NCBI RefSeq assembly: GCF_013201705.1
Contig: NZ_CP053837.1
Coordinates: forward strand, 62,001 to 126,000
Length of the DNA stretch: 64,000 nucleotides
Reading direction: 5' to 3'
DNA from: Aliarcobacter faecis
Lineage (GTDB): Bacteria; Campylobacterota; Campylobacteria; Campylobacterales; Arcobacteraceae
This document shows positions 827-20,643 of this stretch, piece after piece. The notes under the pieces were generated by a model that had not been told where the DNA came from, ran no database searches, and saw nothing but the letters and a program-made list of their open reading frames with translations. The translations under genes were made by a program, and so were the position numbers. Position 1 is the first letter of the stretch, and each line of letters begins with the position of its first letter.

Positions 827-2677
827 ATGGATAATTCAAAACAATTGGAAGAGTTGCAAAAGACATTAAATACTATTTATATAAAAAATTTAGAGTTTTT
901 TAAAAAAAGTGTTCCAAATATATATAATAAGATTTTGGAGTTTGAAAAACTTAATATTGAAAATTACTCTTTAGAGTTTAGAGATAATAATTTTTGTTTA
1001 ATTTACTTAGAAAATAGTTTAAATTTATATGAAGTAGAACCATTTACAGATTCTATAAATAGAGTAAATAATTTTAGTGTAAGTTCTGCTTTTAATTTAA
1101 TAAAAATTGAGCATTTAAAAAAAAGAAATCATTATAACAATGAAATAAATGCTTATGAATATTTAAATCAATTTATAGATAATTTCCAAAATATTGATAT
1201 AAATATAAATAAATTCATTTTTATAGGTACTCTTTTGGGAGTTCATATAAATGATTTTCATAAAGTTTTAAAAGCAAATACATATTTGATAATTGAACCA
1301 AATATTGAAATATTTAGATTATCTATGTTTATGACTGATTATGAAATATTATCAAAAGATTCTAAATTATTTTTTGCAGTTAGTGAAAATAGTATAGAGT
1401 TAAATAAAATAATAAAAGATTTTATGAAATATAAATATGAGTTTAATAATTTTATACACTATGAATTGGTATATAAAAATAATGAAGAGATTATTAATGA
1501 ACTTATAAAATCTTTTACTTATTTAGGGGAGATGAGATATCCATTCTCAGAATTCTTAATTAGTCTAAAAAGAGGATATGACTATTTCTTTGAAGAGAAA
1601 AATATATTAAATCTTAGTCAAAAATACTCTTTTCTAAAGAATAAAAAAGTACTGTTCTTAGGTGCTGGAGTATCTTTGGAGAAAAACTTTGAATGGCTAT
1701 ATTTAAATCAAGAAAAATTTATCATAGTAGCTTCAAGTGCTGTTTTAAAACATCTTAAAATTTTAGATATTGTTCCAGATATTATTTTGGCTATTGATGG
1801 GCAAAAAGATGTAATGATAGAACAGTTTAATACAGCTCCTGAAATGTATAAAAATTCTATAATTTTAGTTTCAATAAAATTAGATTATGAACTTTTTAGT
1901 ACAAAATTAAAAGATACTAAAATATTTTTTATGCAAAATGCTTTGGAGTTATTTGCAGGATTCGGATTTTTAAGAGGAGTTACTGTAGGAGACTTAGGTG
2001 TTGATATTTTGGCAAAGCTTGGAAGTAATGAAATATATCTTTTGGGAGTTGATGCAAGTATTGATGGTGAAAGTGGAAAAACTCATATTGGAACTCATAA
2101 CTCTTCAAGAAAAATAGATTTAAATAAAAAAGATAGTGGAAATTTTAGAGATGATATAGTCTATACTAAAGGAAATTTTGAGAAGTTTGTACCTACATTT
2201 AGAGAATATCTCGATATGATAGATAGTCTTGAAGAGATAATTTCTAATCATAAAAATAGTTTAAAAGTTTATAATCTTGGTTCAGGAGCCTATTTTAAAG
2301 GTTCTTTTCCTTTAAAAGTAGATAATTTTAATTATGAAAAGATAGATAAAGAGATATTTAAAAATGAATTTTTAAGTAGTTTGAGAAATATTTCAAAACA
2401 AAAATTAGATAGTATTGATATAAAAGATATTCAAAAAGAGAAAAAAGTATTAAAAAAACTAAATGGTATAAAAGTAGATAATTTTTATAAAGAGTTTAAA
2501 ATAGTTTTCGAAAACTATCCAAACTCTATGATATGTAATATTTTTGATAGATTCTTTAAACTAGTTTTACCATATTTTTATATGTTAAAAGATAGAGATT
2601 TAGCAAATGAGATTTTAGAAAAACAAATTTACGAAATTTTGAATAGTTTTAACAGTATATTCGATAAAATAAAATAA
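827..2677 (+). CDS. Maf-family flagellin glycosyltransferase
   Basis: A 616-residue protein of the Maf/MptE-like (DUF115) family, close to the usual full length of about 600-650. The N-terminal Maf domain includes FIFIGTLLGVHI near residue 137. The central domain begins near residue 278 with KKVLFLGAGVSLEKN, a nucleotide-sugar-type glycine-rich loop, followed by VASSAVLKHL and PDIILAIDG. Maf proteins transfer pseudaminic or legionaminic acid from the CMP-sugar to Ser/Thr of flagellin in the cytoplasm before export. The pse operon on the opposite strand would supply the donor. I saw no long poly-G or poly-C tract of the sort that phase-switches maf genes in Campylobacter. The family call is firm; the exact sugar is inferred from the neighbours. 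Confidence 0.85.
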   Translation: MDNSKQLEELQKTLNTIYIKNLEFFKKSVPNIYNKILEFEKLNIENYSLEFRDNNFCLIYLENSLNLYEVEPFTDSINRVNNFSVSSAFNLIKIEHLKKRNHYNNEINAYEYLNQFIDNFQNIDININKFIFIGTLLGVHINDFHKVLKANTYLIIEPNIEIFRLSMFMTDYEILSKDSKLFFAVSENSIELNKIIKDFMKYKYEFNNFIHYELVYKNNEEIINELIKSFTYLGEMRYPFSEFLISLKRGYDYFFEEKNILNLSQKYSFLKNKKVLFLGAGVSLEKNFEWLYLNQEKFIIVASSAVLKHLKILDIVPDIILAIDGQKDVMIEQFNTAPEMYKNSIILVSIKLDYELFSTKLKDTKIFFMQNALELFAGFGFLRGVTVGDLGVDILAKLGSNEIYLLGVDASIDGESGKTHIGTHNSSRKIDLNKKDSGNFRDDIVYTKGNFEKFVPTFREYLDMIDSLEEIISNHKNSLKVYNLGSGAYFKGSFPLKVDNFNYEKIDKEIFKNEFLSSLRNISKQKLDSIDIKDIQKEKKVLKKLNGIKVDNFYKEFKIVFENYPNSMICNIFDRFFKLVLPYFYMLKDRDLANEILEKQIYEILNSFNSIFDKIK

Positions 2678-2792: not shown

Positions 2793-3866
2793 TCATTCTA
2801 TCCATACCAAACTATTCCCAGCTCTTTGGTTATTTTTTGAACTATTTTTTAGCTCTTCTAACTCTATTTTATTTATATTATAATCTTCAAATTCTGTAGA
2901 GATATTTAATTTTTTTAACATATCTCTTAGTGGTTTTGAGCTTAACTCTTCAAATATCTCAATCAAAGTTTTATCTATAAAATTATATTTTCCTATAATA
3001 TTATCTATTAGCATTGGAAGTGTAAAACTACAAGCAAGACCGTGAGGAACACCTTTATTTGCTGTTATATAGTAACTCATGGCATGTGCGAGTGCTGTTT
3101 GTGTATTTGAAAAAGCAAGTCCTGCATACATACAAGCCTTTAAAATCTCTGTTCTATACTCTAAATTTTGTAAATCATTAGCAAGTTTTGGTAAATATTC
3201 CATAATTAGTTTTGATGAATTTACTGCATAGTTTATAGTTATAGGATTTGCATTTTTATTCCATATTGATTCCAAGGCATGAGATAAAGTATCAAGCCCA
3301 GTTTGAATAGTAATATCTTTTGGAAGACTTAAAGTTAGTTTTACATCGTATATAGCTATTTTAGGAAAAAGTTCAGACAGATGAAGTGAATACTTTTTCT
3401 TTTCATCCATATCCCAAATAGTTGCCCAAGGAGTTATCTCACTACCTGTCCCTGCTGTTGTAGGAAGAGAGATTATAGGAATAGTTTTATACTTACATTC
3501 ATTAATTATTTCTTTTGTAAGATTTGTTACAAAGTTTGAATCTTTTTCTTCATTATAAATAGAGAAATACTTTGAAGCATCAAGTACACTTCCACCACCA
3601 ATAGCTAGGATTTGTTCAAACTCATATTTATGTATATCCTCATAAGCAAGTTCTAAATCTTTAAATTCTGGATGAGATTTTACATCACTAAATGTATATA
3701 CTAAACAAGAAGTAAGAGATTTTATTTTATCTTCCAATCCTCTTTTTATAAATCCACTTGATGTTACAAGTAGAGTTTTTTTACCATCTAAATATTTATC
3801 AATATTTTCTAGTTCATTTTCACCAAATACAATTTTTGTAGGCATATAGTATGAAAAATTAGTCAA
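2793..3866 (-). CDS. Iron-containing alcohol dehydrogenase, probable phosphonoacetaldehyde reductase
   Basis: A 357-residue group III (iron-type) alcohol dehydrogenase. Visible features are the nucleotide loop AIGGGSVLDASK near residue 89, LPTTAGTGSEITPWA near 135, and four likely metal ligands: Asp and His in GLDTLSHALE, His in ALAHAMS and His in VPHGLACS. It is the last gene of the long minus-strand operon and overlaps phosphonopyruvate decarboxylase by 8 bases. Family members in phosphonate clusters reduce phosphonoacetaldehyde to 2-hydroxyethylphosphonate. No 2-aminoethylphosphonate transaminase is visible here, so this alcohol is the likely product. The enzyme class is clear; the substrate is inferred from context. 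Confidence 0.8.
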   Translation of the reverse strand: MTNFSYYMPTKIVFGENELENIDKYLDGKKTLLVTSSGFIKRGLEDKIKSLTSCLVYTFSDVKSHPEFKDLELAYEDIHKYEFEQILAIGGGSVLDASKYFSIYNEEKDSNFVTNLTKEIINECKYKTIPIISLPTTAGTGSEITPWATIWDMDEKKKYSLHLSELFPKIAIYDVKLTLSLPKDITIQTGLDTLSHALESIWNKNANPITINYAVNSSKLIMEYLPKLANDLQNLEYRTEILKACMYAGLAFSNTQTALAHAMSYYITANKGVPHGLACSFTLPMLIDNIIGKYNFIDKTLIEIFEELSSKPLRDMLKKLNISTEFEDYNINKIELEELKNSSKNNQRAGNSLVWIE

Positions 3867-4932
3867 ATTTATTTACCTCCACAACTTCAAGTGGTGGTCT
3901 TGGTGTTTCATCATCAAATCCACACTTAATATGTAAAAAGTTTAATGATTTTTTTACTTTTATATCATCTACTGTTTTATTAAAATCTTTTAAAGATATA
4001 ATAGTTTTTTTTACAACATTAAATCCACTTGCTTTTGCAATAGCAATATAATCAATATGTTTTTGATATGTATTTTGTCCACCTGTACTCTTGTTTGTTT
4101 CATTATCAAATAAAATATAAGTTAAATCAACTTCATCTTTATATCTTCCTGCACTTGTAAGTCCACCCATATGCATTACAAACTCAGCATCTCCACCACA
4201 AACTATTACTTTTTTACCTGTTTTTGCTGCTCCTAAACCAAGGCTCAAAGCTCCACCCATATTTCCAGCCATATAGAAGTTATTTGTATTTGGCATAAAG
4301 CTATACATCTCTCTTGCAGTATTTCCTGTTGTTCCTATAAAAAGTGTATTATCATTTTTAAACTTCTCATCTAAAGAGAGCAAAAACTTACTCCTAGGAA
4401 CATAATTTGACAAATCTAGTTTATGCTCATCATCTAGCTCTACTTTTGTGAAGCTATCTTTTTTTATTATTGCAATTGTATTTGTATTATTACAAAGTTC
4501 TATTTGCTCTATTGTATTAGTTAAATTTTTATTATCTAAAATCAGACTTTCATATCCATAAGCGTGAATTAAAGTTGGAAGTTCAGTTGCAAGATGCTTA
4601 TGTTGTATTTCGCTATCTGGTGCTTTATATGTTCTCCAGCTTGTAAGAATTGGAAATGTAACTCCATAAGGTTTTAGCAAGCTTGTTATACAGCTTCCCA
4701 TATTTGTAACACCACTTGATTGAACAATAACTATTGGTTTTGCTCCAGCCATTTTAAGTCCAGCTGCAATACTACAAGCAACCGCTTCACTAGCACTTGG
4801 AAGATACTCTATTTTAGGATTATTTATAGCTTCATTTATAACATCTTTTGCAAAGCTACAAGGAACTACACAAAGGTGTGTGTAGTTTTCTTCTATAAGT
4901 GAATTTATAAAATCTTTTGTATTTAATGCCAT
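3859..4932 (-). CDS. aepY: Phosphonopyruvate decarboxylase
   Basis: A thiamine-diphosphate enzyme of 357 residues, about the family length. It converts phosphonopyruvate to phosphonoacetaldehyde plus CO2, the irreversible step that pulls the unfavourable PEP mutase reaction forward. The N-terminal pyrimidine-binding domain holds the conserved Glu in SASEAVACS near residue 48. The C-terminal diphosphate-binding domain has GGDAEFVMHMGGL near 245 and then FDNETNKSTGGQ, close to the NxxxxSTGGQ motif of known phosphonopyruvate decarboxylases. Its ATG shares one base with the stop of the upstream PEP mutase fusion (TAATG), so translation is probably coupled. It is the only decarboxylase for the two PEP mutases in this window. 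Confidence 0.9.
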   Translation of the reverse strand: MALNTKDFINSLIEENYTHLCVVPCSFAKDVINEAINNPKIEYLPSASEAVACSIAAGLKMAGAKPIVIVQSSGVTNMGSCITSLLKPYGVTFPILTSWRTYKAPDSEIQHKHLATELPTLIHAYGYESLILDNKNLTNTIEQIELCNNTNTIAIIKKDSFTKVELDDEHKLDLSNYVPRSKFLLSLDEKFKNDNTLFIGTTGNTAREMYSFMPNTNNFYMAGNMGGALSLGLGAAKTGKKVIVCGGDAEFVMHMGGLTSAGRYKDEVDLTYILFDNETNKSTGGQNTYQKHIDYIAIAKASGFNVVKKTIISLKDFNKTVDDIKVKKSLNFLHIKCGFDDETPRPPLEVVEVNKFD

Positions 4933-6221
4933 TATCTTGTACCTGGAATTAAATCTAATATCTCTTTAATTGATAGTAGTTTCTCTTCAGCCTCTTGGCT
5001 TCTATCATTTTCTAAAATAGAAAGTGCTACATTTTTCATTCCTGGATATGCAGCTCTTAGCATATGATTTGCATAGATTACTATATTAACTCCTGCTTGA
5101 CTTAGTTCTTTTGCTGTGATTTGATTAAAGCTTGTAGGAACTACAACTATTGGAATATTTTCATTATACTCTCTTAATATTTTACAAAATTCCAAAATCT
5201 CATTTGGGCTTTTTTGTCTTGAATGAATCATTATTCCATCTGCACCAGCTTCAATATATGCTTTTGCTCTAGTTATTGCATCAATCATTCCTTTTTTTAA
5301 GATAAGGCTTTCAATTCTAGCAATAATCATAAAATCATCTGTAATTTGTGATTTTTTACCAGTTCTAATCTTTTCACAAAAATTCTCTATACTATCTTGA
5401 GTTTGTTCTACTTCATTTCCAAATAGAGAGTTTTTCTTTAAACCTGTTTTATCTTCTATAATTACTGCACTAACACCTGTTCTTTCTAAACTTCTAACTG
5501 TAAAAGCAAAGTGTTCAGCAATTCCACCTGTATCTGCATCATAAATCATAGGTTTGGTAGTAACTTCAAATATCTCATTTATTGTATTTATTCTAGCAGT
5601 AACATCAACTGTTTCAATATCTGGTTTTCCCTTTGAAGTACTATCAGTAAGAGAACTTGACCACATTCCATCATACTCTATACCATTATTGGCTTTTATA
5701 TTTTCAACTATTAATCCACTTAAAGCATTATGAGTCTCCATAATTCTTACAATCTCTTTTGAGTCTATTAATCTTCTAAGTCTAGATCTTCTAATATCTG
5801 GAGTCGTTCCAAGTTCCTTTAAAGATTTATTTAGTTGTGTAGAAGATATTCCATCTGTATAAGAAGGTTCTATTAGTTCTCCACCCCATTTGGCTAAAGT
5901 ATCAATAACTTGTTGTCTAGTTTTTGCTTGGATTCCCTCTTTCCAATCATCCCCATGAACAACAATATCTGGTTTTACAAGTTCTAAATTTGGTCTATAA
6001 TCTAAAGTATCTTGAGGAATTACCTCTTTTACACCTTTTATATTTTCAATTACAGCTTTTCTTTGTTCATAAGTCATATAAGGAAGTCTTTTATAACTTG
6101 CTATTGCTTTATCTGTAAGTAGTCCTACTATAACTTCTCCTAACCCTGCTGCTATTTTTAATATATTCATATGACCTGGATGTACCAAATCAGCACTCAT
6201 TCCTACATATACTTTTTTCAT
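4932..6221 (-). CDS. aepX: Cytidylyltransferase-PEP mutase fusion (PntC-PepM type), copy 1
   Basis: A 429-residue two-domain enzyme. Residues 1-135 are a cytidylyltransferase with HPGH at 14-17, VVHGDDWK at 87-94 and ISST at 125-128, the usual CTP-binding signatures. Residues from about 155 are phosphoenolpyruvate mutase, with WSSSLTDS at 187-194, DADTGG at 228-233 and the gating loop [10 protein letters not shown] at 256-265. PEP mutase forms the C-P bond of phosphonopyruvate. Fused cytidylyltransferases of this type are known to activate phosphonates as CMP esters for transfer to glycans or lipids. It lies 24 bases downstream of a LicD-like gene and is coupled to the decarboxylase. A paralogue is at 10796-12097; the mutase domains are much more alike than the cytidylyltransferase domains. 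Confidence 0.92.
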
Positions 6222-6245
6222 AACTTATATTTTCTACTTATCTTA

Positions 6246-7148
6246 TTATGAATTTGAATAATAGTCAATATTTGTATATTTACTGTAATGCCAATTTTTA
6301 ATAACCTTTTTCCAATTACCATACAGCTTTTCTAAATATATAACTTCATCATTTGGTATTTTTATTATTTTATTTTTGAAAATATACTCTTTTGCTGGAA
6401 AGCAGATTTCTTTTTTAGAGTTTAATCTTCTTTTTGAAACCATCCAATACAATGTATCATTATGTTCATATTTGAAAGCTAAGTCTAAACCTAACACTTC
6501 ATTATTTATATTAGAGGTACTTATACTATTATATATAGTCAAAATCATAGGAAGTTCTTTTTCTTCATTTCCAATTACAATATCTCGAATCTTTATATCT
6601 ATCTTCCAATTGTTATCTTCGCAATACTCATTTTTATAGCTAGGTAAATAACTAGATAATAGCTTTTTGATTTTTTCTATTTCTAAAGCAGGAACTGCAA
6701 AATCTATATCTATATCCCAAGGTAATATTTTATTATCTCGTATAATACCCAAAAGAGTTCCATGATCAACATGGTACACAATGTCATTTTGATTAAATAA
6801 TTCAGCAATATCAAACATTAACTGCTCTGCTATTTGTATATTTTTATTATCTTTAAACTGTAACTCTTCAGTATTAGAATAAAATATATTAACTTTATTT
6901 TTAAAAATACCCATACTTAAAAGTTGTTTTTCTATTTCAAATTCCCATGAACTAGCAATAATTATTTCATCATAATCTAGCTTTTCTAAAGATTCAGGAG
7001 AATAGATATTTTTATCAAATAACTTTGTATTATGTTTTTTAATATCATTATCACAAAAACCAATAACATTAAAATCTTGTTTACCTTTTAAATGATTAAA
7101 AACTCTTTCGCCAAACTTACTAGCTCCAAAAATTATTATATTTTTCAT
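6246..7148 (-). CDS. Rossmann-LicD fusion, probable phosphonate transferase, copy 1
   Basis: A 300-residue protein in two parts. Residues 1-90 look like a Rossmann-type domain (IIIFGASKFGERVF at the start, then VIGFCDNDIKK), similar to the dinucleotide or CoA-binding domain seen in PglD-like proteins. Residues 105-300 resemble the LicD nucleotidyltransferase fold, with HGTLLG at 129-134, the metal-binding DIDIDF at 145-150 and a C-terminal YLEKLYGNWK. LicD proteins transfer phosphocholine and related groups from CDP- or CMP-activated donors to glycans. Sitting directly before a cytidylyltransferase-PEP mutase fusion, this one probably transfers an activated phosphonate. It overlaps the upstream dehydrogenase gene by 4 bases (ATGA). 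The acceptor is unknown. Confidence 0.7.
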   Translation of the reverse strand: MKNIIIFGASKFGERVFNHLKGKQDFNVIGFCDNDIKKHNTKLFDKNIYSPESLEKLDYDEIIIASSWEFEIEKQLLSMGIFKNKVNIFYSNTEELQFKDNKNIQIAEQLMFDIAELFNQNDIVYHVDHGTLLGIIRDNKILPWDIDIDFAVPALEIEKIKKLLSSYLPSYKNEYCEDNNWKIDIKIRDIVIGNEEKELPMILTIYNSISTSNINNEVLGLDLAFKYEHNDTLYWMVSKRRLNSKKEICFPAKEYIFKNKIIKIPNDEVIYLEKLYGNWKKVIKNWHYSKYTNIDYYSNS

Positions 7149-8314
7149 ATATTAACCTTGATAATTTTCTCAATTAATAAATTGGCTACTTCATCAATCT
7201 CATTAAAGTGTATTTTTTTTGGTAAGTTTATATTAAAAACATCTTTTACTTTGTTTATAAGCTCATCAGTATAGTAAAGTGTTGCATCTTCTATTTTTTC
7301 TATACCGTCTAAATATAAAGAGTTTTTATTATGATTTCTCATATCATCATATGAAAAATAACTTTCATCAAAACTTATTTCTTGAAGATTACCATCAATT
7401 TTTATTGGATAACCACCAATTTCTCCAAAAGCACCTGGTGAATGAAAAGTTAGAGATTTTTTTTCTCTTAATGCTTTTATAATCTTTACTACTATCTCAA
7501 AATTACTACTAGCATTCATCATATTTCTTTTTTGATCTGTAGGCATATTTATTGCACAAGCTTTATAGATTTTATTTATATCCAAAATAACATCTTTTTT
7601 GTTTACTGTAATATTAAGAAGTGGATTTATGCCCTCCGTTTGTCCTTCTTTAGATATTACAACGTCATGAAAATGACTTGTAGAGATTATTACATTTATC
7701 TCATCTTTTATTGATAATCCTAGTTCTTGTTTTACTGCAAATTTTATTCTAGGTATTAAGTGGTTTAAATTTCCACTACCAAAATCTGGATAATTGAGTC
7801 CTGATGATTTTAACCAAGCATTCACCGCATCAGAATATGAAGTGTTTATAACTATTGCATCGCTAGAAGCTTTTTTATGAGCAAGCATAATATTTTTTAT
7901 AATACTTATTGATAATGGTGTCCATATTCCATATGCTCTAATATTATGCCAAGAAATTCCACCATATTTTATTCCACTATAAGCTCTTGAAGAATTAACA
8001 ATAAAATCTGGATTTTCTTCTTTTAAAATATCTACTATATTTTCAATATTATTAAAATCTACTTTTTTTACTATAATATTAGAGAACAATTCTCCTCTAA
8101 TAGATGCTGCGACAGTAGCTATATTTACATCTTGCTCTAACTTCTCTATATTTCTACCCAAAACTAAAATTTCTATTTGAGAATCTTTTAGAGATAAAAA
8201 ATAATTTAGTAAATAGTTACCAACACTCCCTAATCCAAATATAGCTATTTTTATTTTTTCATTATTATTAATTTTTTTTGCTAAACTTTTTACTTTGTTA
8301 TTTGTAGAATTCAT
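7145..8314 (-). CDS. Rossmann-fold dehydrogenase, lactate/malate-dehydrogenase-like, unassigned
   Basis: I do not recognise a named family. The 389-residue protein has a dinucleotide-binding start at residues 20-40 (IKIAIFGLGSVGNYLL) and a second strand VLGRNIEKL. Around residue 175, INTSYSDAVNAWLKSSGL and then GSGNLNHLIPRIKFAV resemble the region of lactate/malate dehydrogenases that reads NPVD...SGL...GSGT.LDSARFR. The later TSHFHD could supply the catalytic His. The start is ATG 8314 after AAGGAG, overlapping the upstream gene by 17 bases. Lying between a nucleotidyltransferase and the phosphonate genes, it may oxidise or reduce a 2-hydroxy or 2-keto acid, conceivably phosphonopyruvate. 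That substrate is speculation. Confidence 0.55.
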   Translation of the reverse strand: MNSTNNKVKSLAKKINNNEKIKIAIFGLGSVGNYLLNYFLSLKDSQIEILVLGRNIEKLEQDVNIATVAASIRGELFSNIIVKKVDFNNIENIVDILKEENPDFIVNSSRAYSGIKYGGISWHNIRAYGIWTPLSISIIKNIMLAHKKASSDAIVINTSYSDAVNAWLKSSGLNYPDFGSGNLNHLIPRIKFAVKQELGLSIKDEINVIISTSHFHDVVISKEGQTEGINPLLNITVNKKDVILDINKIYKACAINMPTDQKRNMMNASSNFEIVVKIIKALREKKSLTFHSPGAFGEIGGYPIKIDGNLQEISFDESYFSYDDMRNHNKNSLYLDGIEKIEDATLYYTDELINKVKDVFNINLPKKIHFNEIDEVANLLIEKIIKVNI

Positions 8315-9041
8315 TTGATACTCCTTGCTTGTAATTATCTATTGTATTACAATTATACCAATTTCTGATTTTTATAAAATCTACCAAATTAGTTTCGATT
8401 TTAGAAAAATATTTATCTATAGTTTCAAGATTGGTATAATTTAAATTTTCTTGTGTAAATATAGCAGAAATCTTTTTTAAAAGTTTAAAGTCTATAAACT
8501 TCCAAATCTGAGCAGAGTTTTTAATAGAAACAAAAGGTTCATTTATCTCTAAAAATTCATGACCAGTATCATACTTATATACTATTTTATTTTTTGTATT
8601 GATATAAAAAATAACAGATGTTTTTGCATCTATTTGTTCAGTATTGTATGTAATTACATTTTTTTTGCTATCTACAACTGCTTGGAAAGAATTTTTATCA
8701 ATAATTAAATCTCCTTCTATAAAAAGTACCTCATCATATTTTTTATCTAAGGCTCTAATTCCACACAATAATGATTCATTACTTCCAAACATATAATTAC
8801 TATTTTTTACCAAAACTATTTTATCATTATATAAACTATTAATATAACTTTCTAGTTCATCAAATTTATATCCCCCAACAATTACAATAGTATCAAACAA
8901 ATCAAGAGAATAATTTAATAAAATATCTAGTATAGATGGGTATTCTTCTTCTTTGTACATAGATTTTAAAATATCCTTATTTATACTTTTCCTAAACCTT
9001 TTTGACTCACCAGCTATGGTAATAATTATTGCTCTATTCAT
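8298..9041 (-). CDS. GT-A-fold nucleotidyltransferase (MobA/LicC-like)
   Basis: About 247 residues from ATG 9041, chosen because AAAGG lies just upstream and the protein then begins with the family's first strand, NRAIIITIAGESKRF. The glycine loop AGESKRF is a loose version of the usual GxGxR. Later pieces fit the fold: TIVIVGGY, GSNESLLCGI and the metal-site-like FIEGDLII. Relatives load CTP or another nucleotide onto a sugar phosphate, choline phosphate or alcohol phosphate. The ATG overlaps the stop of the epimerase gene by 8 bases. With two LicD-like transferases nearby, a CDP-alcohol or NDP-sugar donor is likely. The substrate cannot be read from sequence. Confidence 0.6.
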   Translation of the reverse strand: MNRAIIITIAGESKRFRKSINKDILKSMYKEEEYPSILDILLNYSLDLFDTIVIVGGYKFDELESYINSLYNDKIVLVKNSNYMFGSNESLLCGIRALDKKYDEVLFIEGDLIIDKNSFQAVVDSKKNVITYNTEQIDAKTSVIFYINTKNKIVYKYDTGHEFLEINEPFVSIKNSAQIWKFIDFKLLKKISAIFTQENLNYTNLETIDKYFSKIETNLVDFIKIRNWYNCNTIDNYKQGVSNEFYK

Positions 9042-10029
9042 TATTTTTAACCTTTGTATTAATACACATATCAAGCCCCATATTAAGTGTTATGGTTTCT
9101 TTCCAATTTGTCTTAGCTTTAATTTTATCAGTATTTAAGAGCCTTCTAATAGGATCATTTTCTCTATATCCATCATAGTAAATTTGTAAGTTTTTAATAT
9201 TCATTTTATTTGCAATTTTTTGTACAAGTTCTAATATTTGTATCTCTTCTTGTGTACCAACATTATAAACACTTCCATCTAATGCTTTATCACTTTCTAA
9301 AAGAGATATAATCGAAGAACAACTATCATAATTGTGTAAAAAAGTTCTGCTATTTATTTTTGAATTTTCAAGTAGTGTTATACAGTTATTACTTTTTAGC
9401 TTATCAATTATATATGGTATTATGTGTTCACTATATAGTTCATCATTACTATATACATTAGCAAAACGAATAGAGCAACCTTGTATTAAATCTTTTAATA
9501 CAGCATCTTTAATAAAAAATTCTGTTAATAATTTTCCTGTTGCATAACTTGTTCTTTGTGAGTTTTCTACCGTTGCAAGTGTTATGGAGTCTTCTTCTTT
9601 TACACCCTCTTTTTTCCAAGATTGCATAGAATAAACTTCAGAAGTACTACAATTTATAAATTTTTTGGCTCTTAATCCGATTGCCATATCTAAAAAACTT
9701 TTCATTCCTAAAACATTAGTTTCAAATGTATCATTTACATTATAAAAATGTTTAGTATGTACTACTGCTGCACAATTAATAAAATATAAATTATAATCTT
9801 TATAATTAAGCTCTAAATATTTTTGTAATTTTCTCATCTGCTCTATATTATTTATATCATATTCAAAAAAGGTAAAATGCTTATTACTTTCTAAATCTGA
9901 TACACTTCTTATCGAACTAGCAAAAAAATTATCAAACCCAACTACATTTACTCCTTTATTCACATATTGTCTTGCGAGTTCATTGCCAGTCATTCCTGTA
10001 ACACCACTAATAACTATAACTTCTCTCAT
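9034..10029 (-). CDS. Extended short-chain dehydrogenase, NAD-dependent epimerase/dehydratase family
   Basis: A 331-residue extended SDR protein. The NAD loop SGVTGMTG is at residues 8-15, INCAAVVHT is near residue 85, NCSTSEVY near 127, and the catalytic YATGK near 162. IRFANVYS and the C-terminal region fit nucleotide-sugar epimerases or dehydratases. It abuts the phosphoesterase gene upstream with no gap and overlaps the nucleotidyltransferase downstream, so the three are probably one step group. It is not one of the pseudaminic acid genes, all of which are accounted for elsewhere in the operon. The sugar is unknown. Confidence 0.75.
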   Translation of the reverse strand: MREVIVISGVTGMTGNELARQYVNKGVNVVGFDNFFASSIRSVSDLESNKHFTFFEYDINNIEQMRKLQKYLELNYKDYNLYFINCAAVVHTKHFYNVNDTFETNVLGMKSFLDMAIGLRAKKFINCSTSEVYSMQSWKKEGVKEEDSITLATVENSQRTSYATGKLLTEFFIKDAVLKDLIQGCSIRFANVYSNDELYSEHIIPYIIDKLKSNNCITLLENSKINSRTFLHNYDSCSSIISLLESDKALDGSVYNVGTQEEIQILELVQKIANKMNIKNLQIYYDGYRENDPIRRLLNTDKIKAKTNWKETITLNMGLDMCINTKVKNNE

Positions 10030-10764
10030 TTATACACCCTTTTCAAGTCTATCTTTATAATATTTATCAATGTTATAGTTCTTATATGCTTCTTGTTCTT
10101 TTTTTATGTCATAAGAGACTTTACAAAATTGTATATTATTTGTAAGAGTATCGAAAATTGCATATTGAGAAGAATTATCTAAATTTCTTGGTTGTCCAAC
10201 AGAGCCAGGATTTATAAAAATTGTTTTTTTTCTTTCTTTTAACTGTGAATTTTCATCTTTATAAAAAATCTCAAAAAAATGTGGTTTATGAGAATGTCCT
10301 GAAAATACAACATCATACTCTTTATATAGGTTTTCATTTATATTTGAAGGATTTATTGTACCCCAAAAAATATCATCTAAAGACCCATGAATAAATAGAT
10401 ATTTTTTACCATCTATTATTTTACTAACAAAAGATTTTGTAAAAATATTTTTAATATAGTTACTATTTTCAATGCTTATATTGTCTTTGATTATATTTAA
10501 AGCATCTTTACCTCTTTGTGATGAAAAACGATTATCTTCAATACCAAGAAAAGCCATTTCATGATTACCTGCAAGTAAAACTTCAGTAATTGGTTCTATG
10601 GCTTTTAATTCTTCTAAAACTTCATTGGTATGTACACCATAATTTATTACATCCCCTAAAATACAAAAACGATATTTAGAAAGATTTTTATCTTTAATAT
10701 CCTTTAAAACAGAAGTTAATGCTTCTAAGTTCGCATGAATATCAGAAAGCAAGATTAAGTACAT
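10030..10764 (-). CDS. Calcineurin-like metallophosphoesterase
   Basis: A 244-residue protein with the whole dinuclear metal set: SDIHAN at 7-12, GDVINYG near 38, GNHE near 71, FIHGS near 129, GHSHKPH near 161 and a closing NPGSVGQPR. This pattern is typical of YfcE/MJ0936-type phosphodiesterases. It lies 31 bases after the second PEP mutase fusion and directly before the epimerase. In a glycan operon it could remove a phosphate from a biosynthetic intermediate or hydrolyse a nucleotide-linked by-product. Both ideas are inference; only the family is supported. Confidence 0.75.
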   Translation of the reverse strand: MYLILLSDIHANLEALTSVLKDIKDKNLSKYRFCILGDVINYGVHTNEVLEELKAIEPITEVLLAGNHEMAFLGIEDNRFSSQRGKDALNIIKDNISIENSNYIKNIFTKSFVSKIIDGKKYLFIHGSLDDIFWGTINPSNINENLYKEYDVVFSGHSHKPHFFEIFYKDENSQLKERKKTIFINPGSVGQPRNLDNSSQYAIFDTLTNNIQFCKVSYDIKKEQEAYKNYNIDKYYKDRLEKGV

Positions 10765-10795
10765 TTGTAAACCTTATATTTATTATTTATACTCA

Positions 10796-12097
10796 TTATC
10801 TAGTTCCTGGAATTAAATCTAAAATCTCTTTTATCTCCATACAATCAGATTCTGCTTCAAAACTTCTTTTATATTTTAATATTGATTTAGCGACTTTCAT
10901 CATTCCAGGATATGCAGCTCTTAGCATATGATTTGCATAAATTACTATATTTACACCCATCGCAGCAAACTCATTAGTTGTTACACTATTAAAAGAAGTT
11001 GGTACAACTACAAGTGGAGTATCTTTATCATTTTCTCTAAATAGTGTAATAAACTCTATAATCTCTTTTGGATCTTTATATCTTGAATGAATCATTATTC
11101 CATCTGCACCAGCAATTACATATGCTCTTGCTCTAGCTATTGCATCATCCATACCTTTATCTAAAATTAAGCTTTCAATTCTTGCAATAATCATAAACTC
11201 ATCTGTTATTTGTGCTTTTTTACCTGCTTTTATTTTTTCACAAAAGTTTTTAATACTATCTTGTGTTTGTTCTACTTCTGTACCAAAAAGTGAGTTTTTC
11301 TTTAATCCAGTTTTATCTTCTATTATTACTGCACTTACTCCTGTTCTTTCAAGTGTTCTAACAGTAAATTCAAAATGTTCTTGCTTTCCACCTGTATCTG
11401 CATCATAAATCATAGGTTTTGTAGTAACTTCAAAGATTTCATTTATAGTAGTCATTCTAGCTGTTGTATCAACTGCTTCAATATCTGGCTTTCCTTTTGA
11501 TGTACTATCTGTTAGAGAACTTGACCACATACCATCAAAAGTCACTATCTCTTCATCTGCTGTTTGTTCACTTGCATTTTCTGCAATTAGACCACTTAAA
11601 GCATTATGCACTTCTAAGATTTTTACAATAGGTTTTGCTTCAATTAATTTTCTAAGTCTTCCTAATCTTGCTGTACTAGTAATTCCAAGTTTTTGTTTCT
11701 CTTCTTTTATTTTAAGATCTGAGATATCACTACTATACGGAATTTCTATTAATTTGCCATCCCATTCTTTAAGTAGTTCAATTACTTCTTCTCTATATTT
11801 TTTTTGATAACCACTTTTCCAATCATCACCATGAACTACAAAATGTGGTTTAAGTTTCAATAAATTATCCTTATAACTAGCACTATTTTGTGGAATAATT
11901 TTTTTTACCATTGAAAAGCTTTCAAGTACTTCTTTTCTTTTATCATAATCTAAGTATGTTATATCATTTACTTCACCACAAGCTTTTAATGTCCACAATC
12001 CAACAATCACTTCTCCATGTTTACTTGCTTCTTTTAATACTCTTATATGCCCCGCATGTACTAAATCAGCCATTAAGCTTACATAAACTATTGTCAT
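10796..12097 (-). CDS. aepX: Cytidylyltransferase-PEP mutase fusion (PntC-PepM type), copy 2
   Basis: A 433-residue paralogue of the gene at 4932-6221, ending in the same [10 protein letters not shown]. The mutase half keeps WSSSLTDS at 191-198, DADTGG at 232-237 and [10 protein letters not shown] at 260-269, and matches copy 1 at roughly three quarters of positions by eye. The cytidylyltransferase half (1-150) matches at only about half. It keeps HAGH at 14-17 and VVHGDDWK at 87-94, but where copy 1 has GISSTQL it reads DISDLKI, losing the usual Ser/Thr pair. It may therefore activate a different phosphonate, or be altered in activity. It follows a LicD-like gene by 3 bases, repeating the layout around copy 1. 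Confidence 0.9.
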   Translation of the reverse strand: MTIVYVSLMADLVHAGHIRVLKEASKHGEVIVGLWTLKACGEVNDITYLDYDKRKEVLESFSMVKKIIPQNSASYKDNLLKLKPHFVVHGDDWKSGYQKKYREEVIELLKEWDGKLIEIPYSSDISDLKIKEEKQKLGITSTARLGRLRKLIEAKPIVKILEVHNALSGLIAENASEQTADEEIVTFDGMWSSSLTDSTSKGKPDIEAVDTTARMTTINEIFEVTTKPMIYDADTGGKQEHFEFTVRTLERTGVSAVIIEDKTGLKKNSLFGTEVEQTQDSIKNFCEKIKAGKKAQITDEFMIIARIESLILDKGMDDAIARARAYVIAGADGIMIHSRYKDPKEIIEFITLFRENDKDTPLVVVPTSFNSVTTNEFAAMGVNIVIYANHMLRAAYPGMMKVAKSILKYKRSFEAESDCMEIKEILDLIPGTR

Positions 12098-12100
12098 ACT

Positions 12101-12991
12101 TTATACTCCCTTTTCCATAAACTCTTTTAGCTTATAGTTTGATAATAATATATTTCCATAATCCAAATAAGACCATTTTTTAGCTGGAGTTCTCCAACTT
12201 TTACCATAAGCTTGTTCAACATATTTTTCAGCATCTTTAGGAATTTGAAGTATAATATCTTTATAATTAAAATTTCTTCCACTATCTACAAACTCTTTAT
12301 TGTAGTAGTGATAAGACTCCTCTTCATAATCAAGTATATAATACTTTCCTATGTCACTTGCTAGATTTATATCTATAATTGTTGGTTCGGTTTTTATGTT
12401 TTGGTCATTACTCTTTACTATTATTTTGTTTATTTCCCCTTTTTTTGTGAGGATTTTATCATTTTTATAAACAACTTTTATTAGTTGTTGGTTTTTAAAA
12501 ATTTCACTTTGATTTAAAACTTCCCAAATTTCTTCTATATCTTTTTTTGATGTTACTAATATATCTACATCTGAAACATCAGATAAATTTTGCCCTCTTA
12601 ATAAACAAAGTAAAGAAGAACCTTCTATATAGTAAGAGATATTTGATTGTTTCATAAGATTTGCAAACTCTTTTATAAGAAAATCTGTTGTTTTGACTCT
12701 TTCTTTGCTAGAAAATAAAAGCTCTGTATCTTCTACAAGCCATATTTTTTCTTTTGGTATATTTAAAGCTATTAACTGTTTTTGCATCTCCTCTATCCAC
12801 ACTCCAGAAATTGCAATTTTATCAAACTCTATACTACTAATTTTATCAATATACTTTACTACTATATCATCATAAAATGTATCTTTTAGGTTTTTATTAC
12901 TATCTACAAAAGCTATGATATTGTGCTTGTTTTTAAAAGTTCTATATATAGCTCTTCCTGCTGCTCCTGTACCAAAAATAACTATTTTCAA
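12101..12991 (-). CDS. Rossmann-LicD-like fusion, probable phosphonate transferase, copy 2
   Basis: A 296-residue protein built like the one at 6246-7148 but strongly diverged. Residues 1-90 form a Rossmann-type domain (KIVIFGTGAAGRAIYRTF, then IIAFVDSNKN). From about residue 100 a nucleotidyltransferase-like domain carries EGSSLLCLLRG at 123-133 and DVSDVDIL at 138-145, with C-terminal YVEQAYGKSWRTPAKKW, which resembles the LicD closing motif YG..W..P. It lacks the exact HGTLLG and DIDIDF of copy 1. The gene overlaps the ligase upstream by 4 bases and precedes PEP mutase copy 2. The likely role is transfer of that enzyme's CMP-activated product; the acceptor is unknown. Confidence 0.6.
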   Translation of the reverse strand: MKIVIFGTGAAGRAIYRTFKNKHNIIAFVDSNKNLKDTFYDDIVVKYIDKISSIEFDKIAISGVWIEEMQKQLIALNIPKEKIWLVEDTELLFSSKERVKTTDFLIKEFANLMKQSNISYYIEGSSLLCLLRGQNLSDVSDVDILVTSKKDIEEIWEVLNQSEIFKNQQLIKVVYKNDKILTKKGEINKIIVKSNDQNIKTEPTIIDINLASDIGKYYILDYEEESYHYYNKEFVDSGRNFNYKDIILQIPKDAEKYVEQAYGKSWRTPAKKWSYLDYGNILLSNYKLKEFMEKGV

Positions 12992-14331
12992 ATATTCTCC
13001 TTCCTTCTAATTTTTTTAAATCTATCACTAAAATTTGTTTTTTCCACAATATTTACTTTTGTTGGGATTTTAAAAGTATCTAGCTTATCCTTACAAAAAA
13101 GTCGTATAGTTTTTTTGATATTATCTATTTCCTTATTTAAAACTACATCACAAACAACTGTTTGTCCTGTTATCGCATTTTGTTCAGCATAAACCATACA
13201 ATCATCTACACAATCAAGATTTAAAATTAGACTTTCAACTTCACTTGGGTTTACTTTTTGCCCACCTACATTTATAATCTCTTTGCTTCTTCCAATGATT
13301 TTTAGATAACCATCTTCAAGCTCTTCGACTAGGTCTCCAGTTTTAAACCAACCATCTGATGTAAAACTATCCATTGAAGCATTTAAGTAACCTAAAACTT
13401 GAGTAGTGCTTTTAAGCCACAACTCATTTTCTACTATTTTATACTCACAATTTATATCTTCAAGTTTCATAAATAGCGAGTTTGAAGATTTTGAACTAGT
13501 AGTGCTAATTCCTGTTTCACTTGTTCCAAAAGTTTGTAAAAATTTTACTTTTGGAAAAGCTTTTTTGAGTTTATCTAAAAGAGATTGTGGCATAGTTTCA
13601 GTTCCATAAGTAATCATTCTTAAACTACTTAAATCATAACTTTTATACTCTTCGGAAATTAAAATTAGATTTAAAAAAGTAGGACTACTTGGAAGTACCA
13701 TGATTTTATATTTATCAATTAATTGACAAATATTTTTTGCATCTCTATTTTTTGGTATTATCAAACAAGCTCCCATAAACAGTGTATTAAAAACTGTATT
13801 TAATCCACCAATATGGTCAAACATTAAAAAAACCAACATATTCATAGATTTCTCTTTTTTATCTTTGTAAGAGTTTATAAGATTATCAAGATTATGTATC
13901 ATCGCTTTTGGTTTTCCTGTACTTCCACTTGAAAATAGAACTAATCCAGAGCTATTTTTTTCTTTTAAACTATCTATCATAGTATGAGAATTTGTTTGCT
14001 TTAAATTGGAAATTATTAATTCATTTTTAGAAGTTTTTATGCAAATTTGGCAAAATGACTCTTGTAAATACTCATCTTGTATTTTTTTTATATTTGTAGT
14101 AATAGGAACTATAATATTTTTTGTTTCATATAAAGCAAAAAATAGTGCAAGATTGTAAAAAGAGTAATCTCCTAAAATTGCTACAACTTTTGAATTTATT
14201 TGGTCTTCATTTAAAGTTTTTATATACTTTTCTATTTGTTTTATAAAATTTTCATAAGTGTATGAAGTTTCGTCAAATATTAGTATAGGTTTTAAAGAAA
14301 AACTTTTAAATTTATCTAATAAAAAACTCAT
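12988..14331 (-). CDS. AMP-forming acyl/amino-acid ligase (ANL superfamily)
   Basis: A 447-residue adenylate-forming enzyme. It has the P-loop-like LVLFSSGSTGKPKAM near residue 130, TFGTSETG near 270, GWFKTGDLVEELEDGYLKI near 330, and GRSKEIINVGGQKVNPSEVE near 350. A C-terminal Lys in RFKKIRRK is the likely adenylation lysine. It activates a carboxylic acid as acyl-AMP and then loads CoA or a carrier protein. Its ATG overlaps the SDR stop by one base, and the carrier protein gene is two genes upstream, so the carrier is the natural acceptor. Similar ligase/carrier sets occur in Campylobacter flagellar glycosylation loci. The acid is not predictable from sequence. Confidence 0.82.
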   Translation of the reverse strand: MSFLLDKFKSFSLKPILIFDETSYTYENFIKQIEKYIKTLNEDQINSKVVAILGDYSFYNLALFFALYETKNIIVPITTNIKKIQDEYLQESFCQICIKTSKNELIISNLKQTNSHTMIDSLKEKNSSGLVLFSSGSTGKPKAMIHNLDNLINSYKDKKEKSMNMLVFLMFDHIGGLNTVFNTLFMGACLIIPKNRDAKNICQLIDKYKIMVLPSSPTFLNLILISEEYKSYDLSSLRMITYGTETMPQSLLDKLKKAFPKVKFLQTFGTSETGISTTSSKSSNSLFMKLEDINCEYKIVENELWLKSTTQVLGYLNASMDSFTSDGWFKTGDLVEELEDGYLKIIGRSKEIINVGGQKVNPSEVESLILNLDCVDDCMVYAEQNAITGQTVVCDVVLNKEIDNIKKTIRLFCKDKLDTFKIPTKVNIVEKTNFSDRFKKIRRKENI

Positions 14332-15029
14332 TAATTTACTCCACCAAGATAGATTATTTGCCCTGTAATAAAACCACTTTTATCACTACTAAAAAAATCT
14401 ACCACATTTATAATATCTTCAAAAGTACCAAACCTTTTTACTGTTTGTTTATTTAAAAGTTCATCAATTTTTTCTTTTGGTATAGCTTTTATCAAATCTG
14501 TTTGTATTGGTGTTGGACCTATTGCATTTACAGTGATATTAAAAGGGTTTAACTCTTTTGAAGCTGTTTGTGTAAAACTCTCAATAGCAGCTTTGCTTGA
14601 AGCATAAATAGCCTCTCCTTCAAGTTTTAAAGGTTTTGCAACTGTTGTAAAATTTATAATTCGTCCACTCTTTTTTTTCATCATTACTTTTGATACTTCT
14701 CTTGTAAATAAAAAAGTTCCCAAAAAATTTGTATTAAAAAGTTTTGAAATAGTTTCAAGTGAAGTTGTCAAAATATGATTCATAGATGCAATTGCTGCAT
14801 TGTTTATTAAAATATCAATATGACTAAACTCTTTTTTTATCTCTCTTATCATACTTACAACGGCTTTTTCATCATTAACTTCTAGTGAAAAATGCCTATA
14901 ATTTTTATGATTTATCGAAGCTTTGCTTCTGCTACAACCAATTACAATACAGTTTTTAGATAAATAGTGTAAAGCTAAAGCTTCTCCTATCCCTTTTGAA
15001 GTTCCAGTTATAACTATGATTTTATTCAT
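14331..15029 (-). CDS. Short-chain dehydrogenase/reductase, FabG-like
   Basis: A 232-residue classical SDR with the NAD(P) loop TGTSKGIG at 8-15, NNAA at 76-79 and the catalytic YASSK at 142-146. The position normally held by the catalytic Ser is in INFTTVA near 125-131, where Thr appears in its place. Start and stop each share one base with a neighbour (TAATG), placing it tightly between the carrier protein and the ligase. It is probably a beta-ketoacyl-carrier reductase acting on the carrier-bound group. A sugar or steroid-type substrate cannot be excluded. Confidence 0.75.
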   Translation of the reverse strand: MNKIIVITGTSKGIGEALALHYLSKNCIVIGCSRSKASINHKNYRHFSLEVNDEKAVVSMIREIKKEFSHIDILINNAAIASMNHILTTSLETISKLFNTNFLGTFLFTREVSKVMMKKKSGRIINFTTVAKPLKLEGEAIYASSKAAIESFTQTASKELNPFNITVNAIGPTPIQTDLIKAIPKEKIDELLNKQTVKRFGTFEDIINVVDFFSSDKSGFITGQIIYLGGVN

Positions 15030-15319
15030 TAATTTTCCAATAAATCTTTAATATATAAAGTTAAACTCTCTATATTTCTAAAAGGAGAAGTTTTTGAACT
15101 CATAGCTTTTTCATCTGCTAAAACGATATTTTTTGAAAACTCATCTGAAATTTTATCTTCTAAATCAGCAATAAAACTAACTAATGCTAAAGAGTCTAAG
15201 CTATCATTTCCACCATAAAGTTTTGTTTTTAAGCTTGGGTTTTCAAAGGCTTCATTTTCTAACTCTTCATTTAGCTCTTTTAATGTTTCATATATGATAT
15301 TTTCAATCTTTTCTCTCAT
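15029..15319 (-). CDS. Acyl carrier protein-like
   Basis: A 96-residue acidic helical protein. The segment GNDSLDSLALVSFIADLED at residues 37-55 matches the acyl carrier consensus around GxDSLDxxxLV, so Ser40 is the likely phosphopantetheine site. The N-terminus is longer than in housekeeping AcpP, which has about 78 residues. It begins the carrier-reductase-ligase trio between pseH and the first LicD-like gene, and its stop overlaps the SDR start by one base. It probably holds an acyl or aminoacyl group destined for the glycan. A dedicated phosphopantetheinyl transferase was not seen in the window. Confidence 0.78.
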   Translation of the reverse strand: MREKIENIIYETLKELNEELENEAFENPSLKTKLYGGNDSLDSLALVSFIADLEDKISDEFSKNIVLADEKAMSSKTSPFRNIESLTLYIKDLLEN

Positions 15320-15322
15320 CTT

Positions 15323-15856
15323 CTAATCCTTAAATTGATACTCTATTTTATCTAAATATCTTTTAATTGGTTTTAGTAGTTTTGAATTCTTTTGATTTTG
15401 CCAATCTTTATTCGATAGTTTTAAATATATAATCTCTTCGTCTTCTTTAAAACTTTTAAATCCAAAATTTTTATTAAAGTTCAATGCAACAATATTACTT
15501 TTTTTTACAAAAGAGTTTATCTTTTCATCAAATTTATTAAAAATATACTCTAAAAAAAGATATGTTGTACAAGATTTTAAGATAGGATTTATTTCTTCTT
15601 TAAAATACAATCCCCAGATAAGCTCTTTATTTTTTATAAAGTTTAAGGAACCTATTATCTCATTTCCTTCTAAAATAGCAAAATATTTTCTATCTTCTAA
15701 AGTTTTTAAAGAGTTGATAAAGTTTATATGATTTTCTAAACTTATATTTTCTCTATTTAACATATTATCTTTTATATATTTTTGATTTCTAAGTTCTAAA
15801 ATCTCTTTACTTTCATTTTCATCTAAAAAGATAAAATCTTTAAAAACTATTTTCAA
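15323..15856 (-). CDS. pseH: UDP-4-amino-4,6-dideoxy-L-AltNAc N-acetyltransferase (PseH-like)
   Basis: A GNAT-fold protein of about 177 residues. The early segment ILELRNQKYIKDNM fits the PseH start, where R.W/RN..I...M is typical. EGNEIIGSLNF and NFNKNFGFKSFKED fit the acetyl-CoA and C-terminal helix regions. PseH adds the N4 acetyl group in the third step of pseudaminic acid synthesis. I chose TTG 15856 because GGGGA lies just before it; another TTG four codons upstream is possible. The gene overlaps the end of pseI by 17 bases. Its divergence is normal for this family, and the position in a complete pse operon makes the call likely. Confidence 0.72.
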   Translation of the reverse strand: MKIVFKDFIFLDENESKEILELRNQKYIKDNMLNRENISLENHINFINSLKTLEDRKYFAILEGNEIIGSLNFIKNKELIWGLYFKEEINPILKSCTTYLFLEYIFNKFDEKINSFVKKSNIVALNFNKNFGFKSFKEDEEIIYLKLSNKDWQNQKNSKLLKPIKRYLDKIEYQFKD

Positions 15857-16871
15857 CTCTATCCCCAAATTTATAATCTTTTTTAGCAGTTTTACCTAAA
15901 ATATCTTTTAAGTGTTTTGGGTGAAGTCCATAAAAAGGACGAACACTTTTTATATTCTCTTCGCTAAATTTTTCACCAACTTTTACATCTTTACAAATAT
16001 ATAAACTTCTAGCAAATCGTCGCTGTTTTTTTCGTTTTTCATTTAAACTATAATCAACAATTCCAAGTAGTTTTTCACTATCTCTTACAGCTTTTACTAA
16101 CTCACTAAACTCTTGTTTATCAAGGCTAAATCCACTATCAGCTCCTCCAATAGATTTATCTAAAATAAAGTGTTTTTCTATAACTTTTGCACCCAAAGTA
16201 ACTGCAACAATAGGAGCAATATGTCCTAAGGTATGATCAGAAAATCCAACTTCAACACCAAAAGTTTCTTTCATATTGGGGATAGTTTTTAGATTTGCTT
16301 CTTCTAGCTTTGCTGGATATTCACTAGTACATTTTAATAATATAATATTCTCATTCCCAACACTTTTACAAATATTTACTACATCTTGTATTTCATCAAT
16401 AGTTGCTATTCCTGTACTTATGATTATTGGTTTTTGTTTACTTGCAGTATATCTTACAAGCTCATAATCAGTTATCTCAAAAGAGGCAATTTTGTAAGAT
16501 GTTGGATTAAACTGTTCAAGAAAATCAACGGCACTTTTATCAAAAGGTGTTGAAAAAATATCAATATCTAAACTTCGTGCATAATCAAACAACTCTTTGT
16601 GCCACTCCCAAGGAGTATAAGCTTCTTGATATAGTTCATATAGATTTTTACCATCCCAAAGTGTTCCACCATCTATCATAAAATCGGGATTTTTACTATT
16701 TAAAGTGATAGTATCAGCTGTGTATGTTTGAAGTTTTATAGCATTTGCACCTATTTCTTTTGCTGCTTTTATAGTTTCAAGTGCTGTTTGTAAACTTCCA
16801 TTGTGATTTGCACTAAGTTCTGCAATGATAAATGTCCCATCTTTGTTTAAATCAAAATTTCCTATTTTCAT
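15840..16871 (-). CDS. pseI: Pseudaminic acid synthase
   Basis: A 343-residue NeuB-family enzyme that condenses 2,4-diacetamido-2,4,6-trideoxy-L-altrose with PEP to give pseudaminic acid. The N-terminal barrel contains IIAELSANHNGS near residue 15, AIKLQTYTADT near 44, FSTPFD near 106, KIASFEITD near 132 and GFSDHTLG near 206. The C-terminal SAF (antifreeze-like) domain contains RSLYICKDVKVGE and RPFYGLHPKHL. The Pse-type wording of these motifs, especially ADTITL and LYELYQEAYTPWEW, separates it from NeuB and LegI. It overlaps pseG by 4 bases. Confidence 0.93.
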   Translation of the reverse strand: MKIGNFDLNKDGTFIIAELSANHNGSLQTALETIKAAKEIGANAIKLQTYTADTITLNSKNPDFMIDGGTLWDGKNLYELYQEAYTPWEWHKELFDYARSLDIDIFSTPFDKSAVDFLEQFNPTSYKIASFEITDYELVRYTASKQKPIIISTGIATIDEIQDVVNICKSVGNENIILLKCTSEYPAKLEEANLKTIPNMKETFGVEVGFSDHTLGHIAPIVAVTLGAKVIEKHFILDKSIGGADSGFSLDKQEFSELVKAVRDSEKLLGIVDYSLNEKRKKQRRFARSLYICKDVKVGEKFSEENIKSVRPFYGLHPKHLKDILGKTAKKDYKFGDRVENSF

Positions 16872-17776: not shown

Positions 17777-17778
17777 TT

Positions 17779-18495: not shown

Positions 18496-20643
<2,148 letters not shown>

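Follow-up and report, generated by a model that had tools for sequence, protein, structure and literature searches.

The window analysed here is a 64-kb stretch of a 2.45-Mb genome of Aliarcobacter faecis, and it raises the question of why one gene run carries two copies of a pair that consists of a LicD-like gene and a gene for a cytidylyltransferase (CyT) fused to a PEP mutase (PepM). In agreement with an earlier note on this DNA, the pair was located twice on the minus strand (12991–12101 with 12097–10796, and 7148–6246 with 6221–4932), with four other genes between. The run was longer than that note stated, since 19 minus-strand genes extend from PseB (20607) to an iron-containing alcohol dehydrogenase, Fe-ADH (2793), with intergenic gaps of −41 to +31 nt. 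It starts with the pseudaminic acid genes PseB, PseC, PseF, PseG, PseI and a PseH-like gene (15323..20607), which scored over the cut-offs of TIGR03589, 03588, 03584, 03590 and 03586, the PseH-like protein staying below its own (63.6 bits, cut-off 93.1). These are followed by an acyl carrier protein (ACP)-like gene of 96 aa (15029..15319), a small ORF with a DSL stretch that was named by look, a FabG-like reductase (14331..15029; TIGR01830, 169.1 bits, below the cut-off of 297.75), and an AMP-binding acyl ligase (12988..14331; PF00501, 116.3 bits). The order continues with LicD-A, CyT-PepM A, a phosphoesterase, an epimerase-like protein, a DUF6564 protein, a dehydrogenase, LicD-B, CyT-PepM B, Ppd, and Fe-ADH. 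A flagellin gene and two Maf genes adjoin the run, namely a Maf flagellin glycosyltransferase on the plus strand (827..2677; above cut-off for PF01973 and PF20157), a second, partly included Maf gene crossing the left end of the window on the minus strand (1..684; L208:10639-12684), and the flagellin gene beyond that end (L208:9599-10564). From this gene content we somewhat favour reading the run as a locus for pseudaminate-flagellin glycosylation that carries two stacked head-group modules.

The pair at the lower coordinates was readily assigned. CyT-PepM B (4932..6221) is a Fom1-like cytidylyltransferase fused to a PEP mutase, and both mutase halves were identified as PEP mutase by TIGR02320 (A, 422.9 bits; B, 418 bits; cut-off 319.55) and contain the EDKxxxxxNS motif, which bears out the near-identity of their catalytic motifs described earlier. 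HxGH, a lysine, and a GIST-type motif have catalytic roles in this cytidylyltransferase family. CyT-B aligned with the Fom1 CyT structure 5x3d at 197.7 bits and keeps HPGH, YKR, and GISST, that is, the HxGH, K-R, and GISS(S/T) motifs of Fom1-type cytidylyltransferases for 2-hydroxyethylphosphonate (HEP). LicD-B (6246..7148), composed of a Rossmann domain and a canonical LicD domain (HGTLLG..WDIDID), passed the Pfam cut-off of PF04991 (50.9 bits, cut-off 22.6). The two remaining genes each gave a phosphonate family as the best NCBIfam match, both under the curated cut-offs: the phosphonopyruvate decarboxylase, Ppd (3859..4932; TIGR03297, 187.9 bits, cut-off 312.5), and Fe-ADH (2793..3866; TIGR03405, 337.1 bits, cut-off 423.7), a probable phosphonoacetaldehyde reductase. 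A single-module cassette of Pse genes, ACP, FabG, ligase, LicD, CyT-PepM, Ppd, and Fe-ADH is present in L150, which belongs to the same genus and whose Ppd is 80% identical to that of the window, and also in L152 and L153. Similar company surrounds CyT-PepM in two Alteromonas loci (L105 and L110), which contain relatives of the ligase, FabG, ACP, PseI, and Fe-ADH, and in Nitrincola L062, where relatives of the ligase, FabG, PseI, and Fe-ADH were found and ACP was not detected. By its sequence, module B looks like a HEP-type module of an already known kind. PepM-B would convert PEP into phosphonopyruvate, Ppd would decarboxylate it to phosphonoacetaldehyde, Fe-ADH would reduce this to HEP, CyT-B would form CMP-HEP, and LicD-B would move the HEP group onto the glycan.

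The second pair differs in both of its members. CyT-PepM A (10796..12097) is 64% identical to CyT-PepM B overall, with 74% in the mutase part and 47% in the CyT part, and its CyT domain aligned with that of Fom1 at 127.1 bits. CyT-A has ND instead of KR and DISDL instead of GISST, while HAGH and HGDDW are kept, so that, judged by motifs, the absence of K-R and GISS(S/T) places it outside the Fom1-type HEP cytidylyltransferases. LicD-A (12101..12991) has a Rossmann domain followed by a divergent LicD/FKRP-fold domain (GSS..SDVD); it gave no Pfam match, staying below the PF04991 cut-off. Its LicD-like label is based on the alignment to LicD-B, a partial weak NCBIfam match, and the predicted fold, in which an FKRP-like nucleotidyltransferase fold was recognised. 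The two LicD-like proteins are strongly diverged, as had been noticed before, being 25% identical (E 6e-20 in a single comparison). The accompanying idea of a paired duplication did not hold, because A and B are not sisters in the mutase tree or in the LicD tree; a tandem duplication of one pair was rejected with AU p-values of 1.24e-134 for the mutase and 1.97e-08 for LicD, the latter tree carrying a long-branch warning.

The four genes between the pairs encode a metallophosphoesterase (10030..10764; PF12850, 69.8 bits), an NAD-dependent epimerase/dehydratase-like protein (9034..10029; PF01370, 90.9 bits), a DUF6564 protein (8298..9041; PF20202, 219.5 bits), and a Rossmann dehydrogenase resembling LDH/MDH or saccharopine dehydrogenase (7145..8314), all on the minus strand. 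Comparison with the related contig L198 makes 9041, rather than 9074, the probable start of the DUF6564 gene. Its product is a probable LicC/PntC-like nucleotidyltransferase: it showed weak matches to NTP-transferase models, and one of three PntC-like proteins matched it at E 1.4e-4 (22 bits, with a cut-off of 25). Invariant residues of DUF6564 (R26, K33, and K37 in the numbering of the comparison) may form its nucleotide site. It gave no match to PF12804 (NTP_transf_3) or another Pfam NTP-transferase family and no PDB sequence match; a PHROGs search with three proteins also gave no match.

From the gene content, motifs, trees, and recurring order observed here, a set of reactions, substrates, and an acceptor can be proposed for module A. 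PepM-A, with its CyT domain vestigial, would form phosphonopyruvate from PEP, and the shared Ppd would convert it into phosphonoacetaldehyde. The phosphoesterase, the epimerase-like protein, and the dehydrogenase may transform phosphonoacetaldehyde into a second phosphonate, which DUF6564 would couple to a nucleotide, likely CMP, and LicD-A would move to a second site or acceptor. Pseudaminate or the acyl chain on it (ACP-FabG-ligase set) is the probable acceptor of the head groups, on flagellin via Maf. We put forward tentatively, as somewhat short of an even chance, that module A represents an undescribed pathway whose phosphonate differs from both 2-aminoethylphosphonate (AEP) and HEP, that a member of a new family of nucleotidyltransferases for phosphonates activates it, and that the strain joins it with HEP on flagellin pseudaminate, giving one glycan with two C-P head groups. 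Module A in the window has no Ppd of its own, which counts against the two-module explanation. Of the earlier model the proposal retains that there are two phosphonate modules, that they probably yield two products, and that a separate LicD-type transferase in each module would act on a surface or flagellar glycan.

The same gene set was found at two other places. At L204, from another family of the order, a LicD-A-type gene (37%), an ORF that looks methyltransferase-like, CyT-PepM, a Ppd-like gene (28%), the phosphoesterase (46%), the epimerase (60%), DUF6564 (42%), the dehydrogenase (54%), and another LicD-A-type gene (37%) follow each other, and relatives of the ligase, FabG, and ACP adjoin on the opposite strand. 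In genome G492, the 8.5-kb contig L198 contains PseI (74%), LicD-A (41%), CyT-PepM (73%), Ppd (69%), the phosphoesterase (58%), a C-methyltransferase-like gene, the epimerase (65%), and the first part of DUF6564 (66%), and on a second contig (L207) a Maf relative neighbours the dehydrogenase (69%). The phosphoesterase and epimerase occupy corresponding places in both. These gene sets indicate that the window block from LicD-A to the dehydrogenase is one module that lost, or shares, its Ppd, and on this sequence evidence the four genes between the pairs belong to module A. The CyT-PepM of L204 lies outside the A clade of the mutase tree, K-R is present in its CyT domain, and the Ppd there has only 28% identity to that of the window, so that what the loci share is gene content rather than one inherited block. 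The LicD-A subfamily has five other members in four loci, each locus with a DUF6564 or NTP_transf_3 protein. It counts against the proposal that the nearest relatives of LicD-A (L196 and L197) are from genomes without CyT-PepM. Module A appears to be a recurring, undescribed module, whose product is so far predicted from genes.

This gene company also bears on the alternative that both mutases feed one HEP pool, CyT-B alone makes CMP-HEP, LicD-A and LicD-B serve two acceptors, and the genes between make a sugar. A single Ppd and a single Fe-ADH in the run are consistent with it; epimerases, phosphoesterases, and NTP-transferase-like proteins are also common in sugar pathways, and no AEP transaminase reached the cut-off in the genome (best match to TIGR03301, L158, 138.4 bits, cut-off 360.8), a result by which a plain AEP module was rejected for module A as well. 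However, at L204 and L198 the company of these genes includes a Ppd and a CyT-PepM that has lost its motifs, Fe-ADH being detected at neither locus, so the genes there do not look like an add-on to the HEP route; the LicD-A type is moreover found with GT-A-type nucleotidyltransferases. We consider this alternative unlikely.

The distribution of the module was also examined. CyT-PepM A gave a match at E ≤ 1e-60 in 8 of 104 genomes of the family and 30 of 398 of the order; a fused CyT-PepM gene is present in 2 of 31 genomes of the genus, and the A type in no other of these 31. Decay of one pair in most relatives, a test named beforehand by the earlier note, was not seen: in 8 of the 398 order genomes the sole CyT-PepM is of the A type (74–81% identity) and contains no stops. 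DUF6564 was found in 1 of 248 order genomes and 2 of 397 phylum genomes, the third case, G492, being reached via LicD-A; a search of 398 genomes from the phylum of a Motiliproteus genome gave 0, and since that search matched nowhere, absence is not implied. A relative of the dehydrogenase occurs in 2 of 248 order genomes, the source genome itself and one with only 23% identity. A mobile origin of the four genes between the pairs was rejected: no DUF6564 relatives were found in plasmids, nor in viral contigs with a single-protein query, which reaches close relatives only; LicD-A had no relatives in plasmids; and dehydrogenase relatives of 24–30% identity were on 15 plasmid records, of which the 3 examined have unrelated neighbours. 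The G+C contents of the module A genes (22.5–30.0%, 27.3% for the window) also do not mark them as foreign.

Absence of the A-type CyT-PepM from the others of the 31 genus genomes searched would suit a recent, incomplete import of little effect, as would the Ppd that both other copies of the module contain and module A lacks. The frames of module A are nevertheless open and its mutase motif is intact, a Ppd is supplied by module B in the same run, and LicD-A is also present in two other genomes of the genus; we regard such an import as rather improbable.

The activation step of that second route was evaluated from the CyT motifs of relatives. A total of 113 loci were compared, excluding the window's own pair; 33 were fetched, and 80 named loci, found via two CyT peptide patterns, are the best 80 of 491 relatives ranked against B. 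A fused gene is present in 111 of the loci, giving 104 distinct proteins; the motif sorting omitted L179, whose gene is split in two, and L184, whose gene has an in-frame stop. With the named loci being the best 80 of 491, K-R and GISS(S/T) are both kept in 92 and both lost in 12 of the 104 distinct CyT-PepMs. Inclusion of HxGH and later addition of L198 and L204 gave 92 intact and 14 motif-lost proteins, a ratio that is not a frequency, because sampling by CyT patterns and likeness to B favours intact CyTs. Neighbouring genes were counted as detected when they scored ≥50 bits with any of a small set of probe proteins, which misses more distant or farther genes, in loci that span 3 to 21 kb and often end at contig ends. 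On this basis, and again with the best 80 of 491 as named loci, a separate nucleotidyltransferase (the CyT-PepM gene itself excluded) was detected at 3/92 intact versus 13/14 motif-lost loci, a relative of the AEP transaminase at 1/92 versus 10/14, and Fe-ADH at 78/92 versus 0/14; the Fe-ADH count becomes 74/92 by a rule that keeps one domain score per probe. Of the ten AEP-transaminase relatives, those of L142 and L149 exceed the TIGR03301 cut-off and that of L156 falls just short of it. The only motif-lost locus lacking a separate nucleotidyltransferase is L147, a 10.6-kb contig without any of these genes.

A mutase-only tree of 56 rows, 26 of the 80 named loci among them, shows three changes of motif state: in the clade of A (10 rows), in that of L156, L168, L171, and L180, and in L204, where the loss is of another kind (HPGL and GIDQT, with K-R kept). 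L204 and L180 are on long branches, a sign test cannot reach significance with three changes, and Fisher tests on the above counts, which treat rows as independent, should not be read literally. HxGH is kept in 13 and HGxxW in all 14 of the 14 motif-lost CyTs, suggesting that some activity may remain. The kept HAGH and HGDDW and the 73% identity of CyT-A to its nearest relative, much for a dead domain, would favour the earlier model, in which either phosphonate is activated by the CyT of its own fused protein. That model is improbable, since CyT-A lacks both motifs kept by Fom1 and 92 relatives (named loci being the best 80 of 491), a further nucleotidyltransferase was detected at 13 of the 14 motif-lost loci, and HxGH itself is altered in L204. 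As the two motifs are kept or lost together in 104 of 104 relatives and CyT-A has neither, module A is probably activated by DUF6564 in place of CyT-A, whose domain is probably vestigial. We suggest as a rule that K-R plus GISST in a PEP mutase-fused CyT separates Fe-ADH (HEP-type) loci from loci with another nucleotidyltransferase, and the gene set around DUF6564 is named as a candidate for a phosphonate of undescribed chemistry.

Two CyT-PepM genes in one genome were found only in the source genome among 398 order genomes; two adjoining matches in G294 are pieces of one gene. Among 48 genomes searched from the named loci (best 80 of 491), two have two CyT-PepMs, on separate contigs. One locus of each class is present in Helicobacter sp. 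11S02596-1, in which L180 has relatives of the AEP transaminase and PntC and L181 has Fe-ADH, so that two phosphonate routes per bacterium are not unique. Two such routes in one gene run were seen only in this locus. None of the open-licence matches listed deals with a pair of CyT-PepM genes in one operon or with pseudaminate-borne phosphonates, and the word DUF6564 was not found in the open-licence papers searched. The earlier note knew of no described system with such a paired duplication; fusion of CyT with PepM as such is known from Fom1 (PMC6697681).

The view given in PMC8931226, where marine phosphonoglycans are discussed, is that phosphonates borne by surface sugars account for a large but poorly known share of marine phosphorus. 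The present locus makes flagellin pseudaminate a place to seek phosphonates in Campylobacterota and Alteromonas-like bacteria. A precedent is the flagellin of Clostridioides difficile, on whose glycan 2-AEP was identified by mass spectrometry (PMC8861647); that glycan is GlcNAc-based and, according to a survey cited in the same paper, the species has no pepM, whereas in the present locus the phosphonate is predicted from genes. Fom1 of fosfomycin biosynthesis is a fused CyT-PEP mutase that makes CMP-HEP, as described in PMC6697681 citing the Fom1 work. Module B resembles it in the two-domain protein, the CyT motifs, and the nearby Ppd and Fe-ADH; the locus differs in that LicD transferases and pseudaminate genes adjoin, and a second CyT-PepM lacks the two CyT motifs. 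With respect to LicD/FKRP transferases, both LicD-A and LicD-B have an N-terminal Rossmann domain, and LicD-A has GSS..SDVD where HGTLLG..DxDxD is canonical. For the Pnt pathway, example clusters in PMC6697681 have ppm-fused and nearby nucleotidyltransferases, and the PntCs tested there make CMP-AEP. Unlike these, the present locus has no AEP transaminase over cut-off in its genome, DUF6564 would replace PntC, and two modules stand in one run; it nevertheless shares with the Pnt/PntC pathways the logic of a PEP mutase, a nucleotidyltransferase, and a LicD-like protein for surface phosphonates.

The flagellin gene was located 1.4 kb left of the window at L208:9599-10564 (G000:C1:59599-60564), in the own-genome stretch L208 that reaches past the window's left end, and a second gene for Maf, the flagellin glycosyltransferase, spans that end (L208:10639-12684). 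This arrangement places the glycosylation locus beside its probable target, the flagellin. Further left, approximately 6.3 kb (L208:3289-9598) contained no ORF of at least 150 aa, and this is perhaps an rRNA operon. Within the window, the module A gene for the DUF6564 protein, a probable nucleotidyltransferase, is listed at 8298-9074 with a TTG start that is probably too early; an ATG at 9041 agrees with its relatives.

Relatives of LicD-A, the divergent LicD-like protein of module A, were detected in two other genomes, at 69% in L196 and 58% in L197. In both segments (L196:9992-14422 and L197:6887-10466) the next genes encode an AEP-transaminase-like class V enzyme (below the cut-off) and an NTP transferase, and the L196 segment also has two methyltransferases. 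Both genomes are devoid of CyT-PepM, and these gene sets perhaps decorate the same acceptor with a phosphate head group. PseG is split into two pieces in L196, where two small genes, a putative toxin–antitoxin pair by resemblance, lie between ACP and FabG (L196:7402-7931).

In L142-L145 and L149, a motif-lost CyT-PepM is adjoined by a CyT domain–AEP transaminase fusion, and CyT activity seems to have shifted from one fusion to another. Helicobacter sp. 11S02596-1 carries AEP-type (L180) and HEP-type (L181) CyT-PepM loci on separate contigs. Fe-ADH and relatives of AEP transaminase and PntC occur together, among intact-motif loci, only in L169. Since PseI, ligase, and FabG relatives accompany LicD, CyT-PepM, and Fe-ADH in Alteromonas (L105, L110) and Nitrincola (L062), the HEP–pseudaminate cassette seems to cross phyla.
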